Assembly (NCBI RefSeq): GCF_024714495.1
Contig: NZ_JAMZMJ010000010.1
Location: 1-64,000 of the forward strand
From: Marinoscillum pacificum
Lineage (GTDB): Bacteria; Bacteroidota; Bacteroidia; Cytophagales; Cyclobacteriaceae
Length of the DNA: 64,000 nucleotides
Reading direction: 5' to 3'
Part shown: piece by piece, positions 4,931-35,220 of the stretch
How the letters are laid out: the number at the start of each line of letters is the position of its first letter
Position numbering within the stretch: position 1 is the stretch's first letter
Translations under genes and position numbers: made by a program
Notes under the pieces: generated by a model
What the model was told of the DNA's origin: nothing
The model's database searches: none
Seen by the model: only the letters and a program-made list of their open reading frames with translations

Positions 4931-4980
4931 GGTCCCGTAGTTCAATGCCTGCCTGCCGGTAGGCAGGGATAGAATATTTT
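4931..4980 (+). pseudogene. Broken tRNA 5' part carrying a GC-rich palindrome
   Basis: GGTCCCGTAGTTCAAT (4931-4946) and GGATAGAATA (4967-4976) read together as acceptor strand, D-stem and D-loop of a tRNA very like the intact tRNA-Arg(CCT) next to it, but 20 bp of palindromic DNA (4947-4966) interrupt the D-loop and the anticodon arm is absent. The acceptor strand GGTCCCG is complementary to CGGGACT at 5123-5129, so the matching 3' end may lie beyond the intact tRNA. Confidence 0.7.
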
Positions 4981-5052
4981 GGCCTCTTAGTTCAACGGAT
5001 AGAATAGGCGTTTCCTAAACGCTTGATCCAGGTTCGATTCCTGGAGAGGCTA
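4981..5052 (+). tRNA. tRNA-Arg (anticodon CCT)
   Basis: A full cloverleaf folds: acceptor GGCCTCT/AGAGGCT, D-stem GTTC/GAAT with GG in the D-loop, anticodon stem GGCGT/ACGCT around loop TTCCTAA (anticodon CCT), and T-stem CCAGG/CCTGG around TTCGATT. The discriminator base is A and no CCA is encoded. It reads the AGG codon. It is embedded in tRNA-derived debris: a 5' part in front and three 3' halves behind, all lacking a complete fold. Confidence 0.93.
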
Positions 5053-5053
5053 C

Positions 5054-5132
5054 TTCCTAAACTTTAGATGCAGCCGCGTCGGCGGTCCGATTCGATTCTC
5101 TACCTTGTCGGCAGACAGGCTGCCGGGACTAC
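5054..5132 (+). pseudogene. tRNA-Arg 3'-half repeat 1 with two insertions
   Basis: The unit starts in the anticodon loop (TTCCTAAAC) and continues through GATGCAGC, a GC-rich insert, the T-loop TTCGATTC, a palindromic insert (about 5098-5119, core CTTGTCGGCAGACAGG) and GCTGCCGGGACTAC. With both inserts removed, GCAGC and GCTGC pair as a T-stem and the end is a normal acceptor strand. The 5' half is absent locally, so no mature tRNA is expected. Confidence 0.7.
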
Positions 5133-5143
5133 AAATACCAAAG

Positions 5144-5237
5144 TTTCCTAAACTCCTGATCCAGTGTGAACGACAAGTTCGGGTAGCCGGTGCCATTCGA
5201 TTCCCTTTCTTGACGGCAGGCAGGCTGGAGGGGCTAC
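5144..5237 (+). pseudogene. tRNA-Arg 3'-half repeat 2 with two insertions
   Basis: Starting TTTCCTAAACTCCTGATCCAG, interrupted before and after the T-loop TTCGATTCC, and ending TGGAGGGGCTAC. Joining the pieces gives a sequence almost identical to the 3' half of the intact tRNA-Arg(CCT) at 4981-5052. The second insert (about 5204-5224, core TTGACGGCAGGCAGG) is a copy of the GC-rich palindrome; the first is a different 30-base sequence. Confidence 0.7.
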
Positions 5238-5332
5238 TTTCCTAAACTTTAGATACAGCCATCCGAGGTTTCGGCGGTGCGCCGCTGCGACTCGATTCCC
5301 TGCCTTGTCGGCAGATAGGCTGTAGAGGCACT
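5238..5332 (+). pseudogene. tRNA-Arg 3'-half repeat 3 with two insertions
   Basis: Again begins TTTCCTAAAC, then GATACAGC, an insert containing GGCGGTGCGCCGC, the T-loop TCGATTCC, a palindromic insert (about 5299-5319, core CTTGTCGGCAGATAGG) and GCTGTAGAGGCACT. ACAGC pairs with GCTGT, so the T-stem is kept by compensating changes relative to repeats 1 and 2. Confidence 0.68.
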
Positions 5333-5353
5333 TATACAATTATGAATTCTTCA

Positions 5354-34590: not shown

Positions 34591-34775
34591 AAAAATGATT
34601 ATTTCGGGGGCAAAGATAGAATCTATTTTAAAACCTAGAAGATTAACGTTGATTTATAAGACAAATTATTAACTTTGCCCTCGATTTTAGTCAAGCATCT
34701 AGATAACAGGTGCAAGATACACTCAAGATTTCAGGTCTAAATAAGCCTTCATCTTAAAAAGTGTTAATCGAAAAT

Positions 34776-34859
34776 GGCCTCCTAGTCTACCTCGTCGGCA
34801 GACGGGCTCAACTGAATACCTGCCTTGCCGGCAGGCAGGGAGCAGTTGATTACAGGCTT
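34776..34859 (+). pseudogene. Broken tRNA-Arg 5' half with two GC-rich palindrome insertions
   Basis: GGCCTCCTAG (34776-34785), CTCAACTGAATA (34807-34818) and GAGCAGTTGATTACAGGCTT (from 34840) reproduce the first 41 bases or so of the intact tRNA-Arg(ACG) at 35099 with few changes. Two palindromic insertions (34786-34806, core CCTCGTCGGCAGACGGG; 34819-34839, core TGCCTTGCCGGCAGGCA) split it at the base of the D-stem and in the D-loop. The remnant stops in the anticodon loop, directly at the start codon of the GIY-YIG gene. The shared flank AAAATGGCCTCCTAG precedes both tRNA copies. Confidence 0.75.
34819..34839 (+). repeat. GC-rich palindromic element (best copy of six)
   Basis: A 21-bp near-perfect palindrome, core TGCCTTGCCGGCAGGCA. 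Related copies lie at 4947-4966, about 5098-5119, 5204-5224, 5299-5319 and 34786-34806. Every copy that I found sits inside tRNA-Arg-derived sequence, either in the D-arm or next to the T-loop. Confidence 0.75.
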
Positions 34860-35108
34860 ATGACAACATACACTGTATATGTTTTAAAGAGTATTAACTT
34901 TGACAGATATTATACAGGAATGACAGCTGATCTTGAACGAAGGTTAGCAGAACATAACAGCGGAAAAACAAAATCAACTAAAGCATACAAGCCTTGGAAG
35001 ATTGTTTATAAAGAATCATTTTCATCAAGATCTGAAGCTCGCGCTCATGAGAAATATCTCAAAAGTGGGTCAGGAAGAGAATGGATTAAAAAGAAAATGG
35101 CCTCCTAG
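34860..35108 (+). CDS. GIY-YIG nuclease-domain protein nested between tRNA-Arg copies
   Basis: 82 residues from ATG at 34860; the open frame upstream to 34761 runs through the tRNA remnant and palindromes and is not used as coding. The domain is complete: VYV (6-8) and YTG (18-20) in place of GIY and YIG, Arg27/28 in LERRLAEHN, and the catalytic Glu64 in SEARAHEKYLKSGSGREW. This is the small UvrC/Slx1-like GIY-YIG family (metal-dependent DNA cleavage). The last codons (ATG GCC TCC TAG) coincide with the first ten bases of the intact tRNA-Arg(ACG). Gene, flanking tRNA duplication and palindromes together look like a small mobile unit. Confidence 0.88.
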   Translation: MTTYTVYVLKSINFDRYYTGMTADLERRLAEHNSGKTKSTKAYKPWKIVYKESFSSRSEARAHEKYLKSGSGREWIKKKMAS

Positions 35109-35175
35109 CTCAACTGAATAGAGCACTTGATTACGGCTCAAGAGGTTGCAGGTTTGAATCCTGCGGAGGTCACCA
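35099..35175 (+). tRNA. tRNA-Arg (anticodon ACG), CCA encoded
   Basis: Acceptor GGCCTCC/GGAGGTC, D-arm GCTC/GAGC, anticodon stem CTTGA/TCAAG around TTACGGC (anticodon ACG, presumably edited to ICG), T-stem GCAGG/CCTGC around TTTGAAT, discriminator A and an encoded CCA. It serves CGN codons. Its 5' end overlaps the last ten bases of the GIY-YIG gene, so the nuclease message and the pre-tRNA are probably one transcript. Confidence 0.95.
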
Positions 35176-35182
35176 AGAGAGC

Positions 35183-35220
35183 AAAGCCCTTTCATTCATA
35201 TGAAAGGGCTTTTGTGTTTT
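35183..35220 (+). terminator. Terminator after tRNA-Arg(ACG)
   Basis: AAAGCCCTTTCA (35183-35194) pairs perfectly with TGAAAGGGCTTT (35201-35212) and is followed by a T-rich run. Confidence 0.85.

Follow-up and report, generated by a model that had tools for sequence, protein, structure and literature searches.

The stretch of DNA analysed here, hereafter the window, comprises the first 64,000 nucleotides of contig NZ_JAMZMJ010000010.1 of Marinoscillum pacificum. It holds two tRNA genes, tRNA-Arg(CCT) at 4981-5053 and tRNA-Arg(ACG) at 35099-35175, and immediately before the latter lies a small gene for a GIY-YIG nuclease, the subject of this work; all features described are on the forward strand. 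The initial annotation had placed this gene between a broken tRNA-Arg 5' half and an intact tRNA-Arg(ACG), and the arrangement was confirmed by alignment, by the PF01541 match and by the tRNA calls. The gene (34860-35108, with its ATG at 34860) encodes a single-domain protein of 82 residues (PF01541, E 3.4e-16); a longer in-frame open reading frame (ORF) begins at 34761, and homology to relatives is found only from 34860. Its TAG stop codon (35106-35108) sits within the tRNA-Arg(ACG) gene. This intact tRNA, called by tRNA detection and an Rfam scan, is the only ACG among the 34 typed tRNA loci of the genome, a count that omits the two weakest or duplicate-cluster matches of 36. A hairpin followed by a T-rich stretch (35183-35212), recognised as an inverted repeat, is the likely terminator of the tRNA.

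Upstream of the nuclease gene, three blocks within 34770-34858 match the 5' flank and 5' half of tRNA-Arg(ACG) and are parted by two insertions of 21 nt. The first block (34770-34785) consists of 6 nt of 5' flank and tRNA bases 1-10 and is identical to 35093-35108 at 16/16 positions, the second (34806-34818, about bases 10-22) is identical to 35108-35120 at 13/13, and the third (34840-34858, about bases 23-40) aligns with one mismatch and one insertion. The first insertion (34786-34806, at tRNA base 9/10, both ends ambiguous by one base) is an alignment gap that reads as an imperfect hairpin; the second (34819-34839, CCTGCCTTGCCGGCAGGCAGG) is an alignment gap at a D-loop insert site shared with other loci. 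The direct repeat of about 40 bases described at first therefore exists in a modified form, as about 48 matched bases split by two hairpins. Gapped local alignment of this remnant with the tRNA scored 57, a value reached by none of 1000 dinucleotide shuffles (maximum 34); the maximum among 570 other window segments on both strands was 35.5.

A putative native tRNA promoter (TTG, 18 nt, TAACTTTG) was read from the sequence at 34649-34677, which would lie 5' of the inserted material; the call follows what we take to be the Bacteroidota promoter consensus. The same stretch is present in the congeners G003, G004 and G002 and, less exactly, in G001. Between the two conserved neighbour genes of the ACG locus there is no gene other than the GIY-YIG gene, and the ORF list of the window contains no integrase-sized ORF between remnant and tRNA, the insert holding the GIY-YIG ORF only. 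The Rfam scan of the window returned only the two tRNAs and no group I intron RNA. A group I intron with a GIY-YIG ORF was rejected on this result and on the downstream tRNA, which is complete and unsplit.

The nuclease family and its recurrence beside tRNA genes

The set of nuclease active-site residues in the family is complete. All 62 aligned sequences have Y7, Y18, R28, H32, N33, G35, E64 and K68, of which Y7, Y18, R28, H32 and E64 presumably correspond to the active-site residues of I-TevI. The AlphaFold2 model of the 82-residue protein has a predicted local distance difference test score (pLDDT) of 94. When a profile was compared with solved structures, the UPF0213 proteins 1zg2/1ywl were the best match (E 3e-14) and SLX1 reached E 4.5e-7, in agreement with Foldseek. 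With such an SLX1-like fold, branched or hairpin DNA would be a plausible substrate for the nuclease; SLX1 itself requires SLX4 and larger domains. The GIY-YIG gene is under purifying selection with intermittent decay: the ratio of non-synonymous to synonymous substitution rates (dN/dS) was 0.05-0.24 in those 33 of the 52 pairs that had a measurable dS, and some copies are truncated or stop-bearing. Like UPF0213, the window protein is a single GIY-YIG domain in the range of about 80-100 residues; unlike the tRNA-linked family, the five UPF0213-like paralogues of the same genome (L003, L004, L005, L007, L008) have no tRNA nearby. A defence system or named phage family was rejected, as NCBIfam, PHROGs and PADLOC gave no match at E 0.001. 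So was a phage- or plasmid-borne family, with 15 phage and 2 plasmid records (mostly Rhizobium phages and Listeria), all below 60% identity, and no confirmed relative among three pattern matches in viral_contigs.

The layout in the window is one case of a widespread pattern. We gathered 80 named-genome loci by peptide patterns of the window protein alone and 30 own-phylum loci as best matches of a profile built mainly from these 80, the tRNA sequence being used in neither. The 80 loci are mostly from Bacteroidota, with others from Chlorobiota, Ignavibacteriota, Omnitrophota, Neomarinimicrobiota (Fidelibacterota), WOR-3-type bacteria and the candidate phyla radiation (CPR). A tRNA on the same strand lies within 150 bp in 68 of the 80 loci, in 26 of the 30 best matches from an even own-phylum sample, and in 21 of 29 best-match loci in relatives, for which positions came from a hidden Markov model; on the opposite strand the number was 0 in each set. 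Around the 80 loci, tRNA density was 30 per 10 kb at less than 150 bp and dropped to 0.14 per 10 kb at a distance of 1-2 kb. In these counts L095, on a truncated contig, was excluded from the remnant and distance figures, and L076, L092 and L101, cut at contig ends, were counted as having no tRNA. The link between nuclease and tRNA suspected from the window alone is thus not accidental, most homologues having a tRNA neighbour. With a 62-sequence profile at E <= 1e-15, members were found in 121 of 296 own-phylum genomes, with up to 16 copies.

Related nucleases tend to sit beside tRNAs of the same isotype. The GIY-YIG tree requires 20 changes of tRNA isotype, compared with a minimum of 33 in 300 shuffles, and the isotype groups mix phyla; a Ser-rich group, for example, joins Berkelbacteria, Endomicrobiales, Ignavibacteriales, Nomurabacteria and Neomarinimicrobiota, with a few other isotypes mixed in.

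Anatomy of the tRNA-linked loci

Across the window's own genome, its relatives and the named genomes, 116 loci were compared: in 71 the GIY-YIG gene precedes an intact tRNA, in 29 it follows one, and in 16 the nearest 600 bp contain no tRNA. The sequence across the gene from the intact tRNA held a remnant of that tRNA which outscored 100 shuffles in 65 of the 71 tRNA-downstream loci and in 22 of the 29 loci with the mirror layout, so the upstream remnants do resemble the adjacent tRNA far beyond shuffled sequence, as the initial annotation had supposed. Among the other tRNA-downstream loci, L165 and L168 had insufficient flank for the shuffle test and four fell below its threshold; in three of these (L078, L155, L160) a tRNA piece broken by a palindrome was seen by eye, and in L163 it was not. 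The GIY-YIG stop codon lies within the tRNA in 36 of the 71 loci, in 16 of them at tRNA bases 8-10.

About 64 remnants of the tRNA-downstream layout could be anchored (63 or 64 depending on the run, because the shuffles are random). In 46 of these an insert, in most cases a CCTGCC...GGCAGG hairpin, occurs at offset 21-23, which we take to be the D-loop just 5' of the D-stem 3' strand, and 42 of the 46 fit a strict CCTGCC...GG pattern. Hairpins of other sequence occupy the same D-loop site in L090 and L171, and CCCCGC/CCCGCC-type hairpins do so in the tRNA-Ser arrays L255 and L250; in the mirror layout the hairpin is located in the T-arm region. The 20-mers that form the common hairpin comprise only 12 distinct sequences, with little covariation and with overlapping alternative hairpins. 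The same D-loop position recurs with a different palindrome at L034, a tRNA-Asp pair of the window's own genome, where the remnants carry a hairpin around CCGATAGCTATCGG in the D-loop region.

It had been proposed from the window that the tRNA is cut at the anticodon loop. As a general rule this is not supported, since 7 of 63 remnants reach base 60 or beyond and the constant landmark of the remnants is the hairpin, not the anticodon. The 3' ends of the remnants are nevertheless concentrated around the anticodon, 35 of 63 lying at bases 27-40, and the half described at first looks partly like erosion. The displaced copy at L121, L145 and L128 keeps nearly the entire tRNA, with the hairpin as its chief defect, and the duplication at L121 also takes in more than 60 bp of upstream flank. 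These loci and the far-reaching remnant ends make the originating event look like a duplication of the tRNA, sometimes including its promoter, followed by erosion.

In several genomes tandem GIY-YIG units adjoin one intact tRNA. L255 and L250 contain three near-identical units, in which tRNA bases 1-35 with two hairpins precede a GIY-YIG gene, and then an intact tRNA-Ser. In L247, five GIY-YIG copies and a partial sixth lie 3' of a tRNA-Leu, each copy followed by a hairpin-marked tRNA 3' piece and identical downstream sequence. In the L261 array two tRNAs are called, of which one is altered.

Occupied, GIY-less and empty versions of a locus

The ACG locus exists in three states among six species of the window's genus, one occupied, two GIY-less and three empty. 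In the empty congeners G003, G004 and G002 the orthologous upstream flank runs directly into an intact tRNA, G001 and G005 have a hairpin-marked remnant without a GIY-YIG gene, and the complete set is present only in G000. A search of 40 genomes of a second genus gave 25 orthologous Arg(TCG) loci. A GIY-YIG gene is present in two (G087, G374) and a possible remnant in one (L267); the other 22 loci gave no remnant signal (scores up to 19, with no formal threshold). Reading the insert as a cassette, as was done from the start, thus fits occupied and empty versions of one locus in two genera. At occupied loci the hairpin interrupts the displaced copy and the intact copy is uninterrupted. At the ACG locus itself, L196 (G004) and L199 (G002) carry a clearly different tRNA-Arg(ACG), with compensating changes in the acceptor, D and anticodon stems. 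The window-type tRNA-Arg(ACG) occurs at 92-95% identity in other genera of the family, which suggests that the G002/G004 type is derived.

The window's second tRNA locus (4931-5334) looks like a GIY-less relic of repeated invasions, to judge from its sequence. Its intact tRNA-Arg(CCT) (4981-5053, tRNA detection and Rfam) lies between one 5' and three 3' tRNA-Arg remnants, each with a hairpin, and no GIY-YIG gene is present. The 5' remnant (4931-4979) carries CCTGCCTGCCGGTAGGCAGG at 4948-4967 in the D-loop, and the 3' remnants (5054-5334) have their hairpins in the T-arm, the first ending in CGGGACTAC. Same-strand tRNA remnants were found near 15 of the 34 own-genome tRNA loci, compared with 2/34 on the opposite strand and 0/34 with swapped flanks; a GIY-YIG gene was found at only three own-genome sites in the first search.

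The initial annotation further supposed that the cassette had brought a replacement tRNA start. This cannot be demonstrated at the ACG locus because remnant, intact tRNA and the tRNA of the empty congener G003 agree. Three other loci are consistent with a replacement tRNA on comparison of their sequences. The displaced piece at L270 (G374) shares the sequence GTTCAACTGGATAGAA with the tRNA native to the genus, and the intact tRNA 3' of the GIY-YIG gene is of another type. The L155 remnant scored 41 against other Arg(CCT) genes and 28 against its own neighbour tRNA. At the window's Arg(CCT) locus the acceptor strand of the 5' remnant can pair at 7/7 positions with the first 3' remnant, compared with 5/7 for the intact tRNA, which pairs 7/7 with itself; the pairing is not fully specific, since the second 3' remnant is complementary to the 5' remnant at 6/7 positions and to the intact strand at 7/7. 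Most loci weigh against replacement as the rule. The remnant is closer to its own adjacent tRNA than to any tRNA with another anticodon in 44/44 loci for the left part and 42/44 for the right part, the comparison set being tRNAs of other species and thus a weak control, and this match would also fit local duplication. Insertion of an element carrying its own tRNA bases 22-38 was rejected as a general rule because in 42 of 44 loci these bases agree with those of the adjacent tRNA.

Proposed mechanism and alternative explanations

We consider that the nuclease gene is probably part of a selfish, free-standing, homing-endonuclease-like cassette that lives in tRNA genes. In favour of this, the loci show the layout and its recurrence, clustering by isotype, variable occupancy of one locus, purifying selection and a full set of active-site residues; cutting of DNA, homing, the way the gene is expressed and what the hairpin does are inferred. 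In this proposal a single small GIY-YIG gene is accompanied by a short inserted hairpin and by an additional copy of the targeted tRNA or of only its proximal half. The encoded protein would break tRNA genes of a preferred isotype, and repair from an occupied locus, with the two tRNA copies serving as homology arms, would insert the GIY-YIG gene. As one intact tRNA remains, the host is proposed to survive. The superfluous copy, 5' in one layout and 3' in the other, would carry a hairpin within the D- or T-arm and erode later. The GIY-YIG gene is probably transcribed from the tRNA's own promoter, with the downstream tRNA freed by processing. Unequal recombination between copies could generate the tandem arrays, loss of the GIY-YIG gene the solo remnants, and loss of everything the empty tRNA. 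If so, a minimal selfish nuclease regularly resides in essential tRNA genes in a substantial fraction of the phylum's genomes (121/296 sampled), the broken tRNA copies and hairpin repeats beside tRNAs are explained, a route exists for horizontal replacement of tRNA genes, and an 82-residue nuclease with a testable tRNA-gene preference is at hand.

More tentatively, and as a claim we would not yet hold firmly, the cassette may represent a categorically new kind of mobile element in bacteria, in which a single GIY-YIG gene settles in tRNA genes of different phyla with tRNA sequence as homology arms, on occasion exchanges the tRNA for a new one and disables the displaced copy by a D- or T-loop hairpin. 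A literature search, with subscription journals and preprints mostly outside its coverage, found no report of such cassettes in bacterial chromosomes in the texts available. The recurrence of the layout in other bacteria points to a selfish one-gene element, as yet undescribed, that spares one working tRNA. The available text on fungal mitochondrial mobile ORFs with a replacement gene end (Allomyces atp6; Glomus atp6, atp9, cox2 and nad3) describes a similar arrangement, in which an endonuclease ORF lies within a gene, the gene end is duplicated, the gene stays functional and the native piece is displaced; the Glomus atp9 ORF is even of the GIY-YIG type (PMC3630166). Those elements differ in having mitochondrial protein-coding targets, C-terminal ends and mostly LAGLIDADG enzymes, and the same text, in its available part, describes no fixed hairpin mark in the displaced piece (PMC3630166).

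Several observations weigh against the cassette. Twelve of the 80 named-genome loci have no tRNA within 150 bp; nine of these have a more distant one, mostly within about 450 bp and in seven cases within about 450 bp or 600 bp, and three (L118, L149, L170) are contig ends. The tRNA of the empty congener G003 is identical to the window's intact, uninterrupted tRNA-Arg(ACG), so there is no apparent reason why the occupied locus would escape its own nuclease. The clustering of isotypes on the tree is partly due to shared descent, which the shuffles do not correct for, and most inner branches are weakly supported, the forks being unsure because the sequences are short. The A/B layout shows little tree signal (20 changes, equal to the shuffle minimum of 20). 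Finally, in some genomes the palindrome is found away from tRNAs (10 of the 16 loci fetched). As to the three contig ends, those assemblies stop within about 25 bases 3' of the GIY-YIG stop codon, probably because tRNA copies are repeats, and loci of this kind may be undercounted in draft genomes.

The palindromes outside tRNAs would be expected if the palindrome itself were the mobile unit and the GIY-YIG protein its mobiliser, with superfluous tRNA loops as favoured landing sites, an explanation by analogy that we judge unlikely. In its favour, near-identical 20-mers occur at one tRNA position in several phyla while the GIY-YIG proteins are only about 45-60% identical, 5 of the 16 palindrome loci are remnants that lack the GIY-YIG gene and stand ahead of an intact tRNA, direct repeats bracket the small GIY-YIG gene at 5/9 loci away from tRNAs against 0/10 controls, and the closest solved folds include the branched-DNA nuclease SLX1. 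However, the palindrome (with at most one mismatch) is absent from 48 of 59 relatives' genomes, some of which have a tRNA-linked GIY-YIG gene, other hairpins occupy the same site (L090, L171, L255, L250), and the tRNA duplication is left unexplained. The model for such a pair is the repetitive extragenic palindrome and its associated transposase (REP/RAYT), defined by a Y1 tyrosine transposase beside palindromes; here, unlike there, the palindrome-linked protein is GIY-YIG. Mitochondrial double-hairpin elements and GC clusters are likewise short, GC-rich mobile hairpins, without target duplication and sometimes in RNA genes; they are organellar, and the available text names no linked nuclease gene (PMC2800124). 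The five GIY-less 5' remnants, L203 (Leu), L204 (Val), L206 (Gln), L207 (Arg) and L211 (Leu), directly precede the intact tRNA, carry the 20-mer hairpin in the D-loop and resemble non-autonomous derivatives.

It is rather improbable that the layout is a dosage system beneficial to the host, in which a SegB-like nuclease amplifies the neighbouring tRNA and extra copies help, for example against tRNA-cutting defences or toxins. Phage SegB is the closest described system found. Its homing has been reported (PMC2988022, available text), and a 2026 report, as far as its available part goes, describes segB clustering with phage tRNA genes and, in phage T6, amplifying the tRNA and segB segment into tandem repeats (PMC13096335). 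The tandem GIY-YIG units beside a tRNA resemble such repeats, but the arrays read closely hold mostly broken tRNA pieces and one intact tRNA (in L261, two calls, one altered), occupancy is patchy and GIY-YIG copies decay. Like our gene, segB encodes a GIY-YIG protein directly before a tRNA on the same strand, the T4 segB stop lying 5 bp before tRNA-Arg where here the two overlap. Unlike our protein of 82 residues, SegB has 221, and similarity ends after the first GIY motif (BLASTP E 1.3; hhalign 22 columns, probability 33%). No tRNA-Arg remnant was found upstream of T4 segB, unlike at the window locus, and SegB is phage-borne, in contrast to a family with few and distant phage records. If the selfish cassette is real, it would be a chromosomal counterpart of SegB-driven tRNA amplification in phages.

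Tyrosine-recombinase elements typically create partial tRNA duplications, and the remnants at 15 of 34 own-genome tRNA loci might be taken for attachment-site scars with the GIY-YIG gene as leftover cargo. We disfavour this as very improbable: both 5' and 3' duplications occur, the insert has a single conserved gene and, unlike tRNA-targeting integrative elements, no integrase gene, and the hairpins sit at fixed positions. In the window, the interval from remnant to tRNA holds no integrase-sized ORF; no search for integrases was made in the rest of the genome. A chance neighbourhood with ordinary tandem tRNA duplication, suggested by tandem tRNA pseudogenes without a GIY-YIG gene in this genome, is excluded by recurrence across genera and phyla, by the remnant score above shuffles, and by the 65/71 remnants and 68/80 same-strand tRNAs.

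The principle of the cassette may extend to small GIY-YIG genes between other direct repeats, and would then be a major undescribed source of tRNA gene replacement and palindromic repeats. Four loci of the window's own genome (L004, L005, L007, L008) and one of a congener (L099) carry such a gene away from tRNAs between long direct repeats, and constitute a second, non-tRNA version of the same layout.
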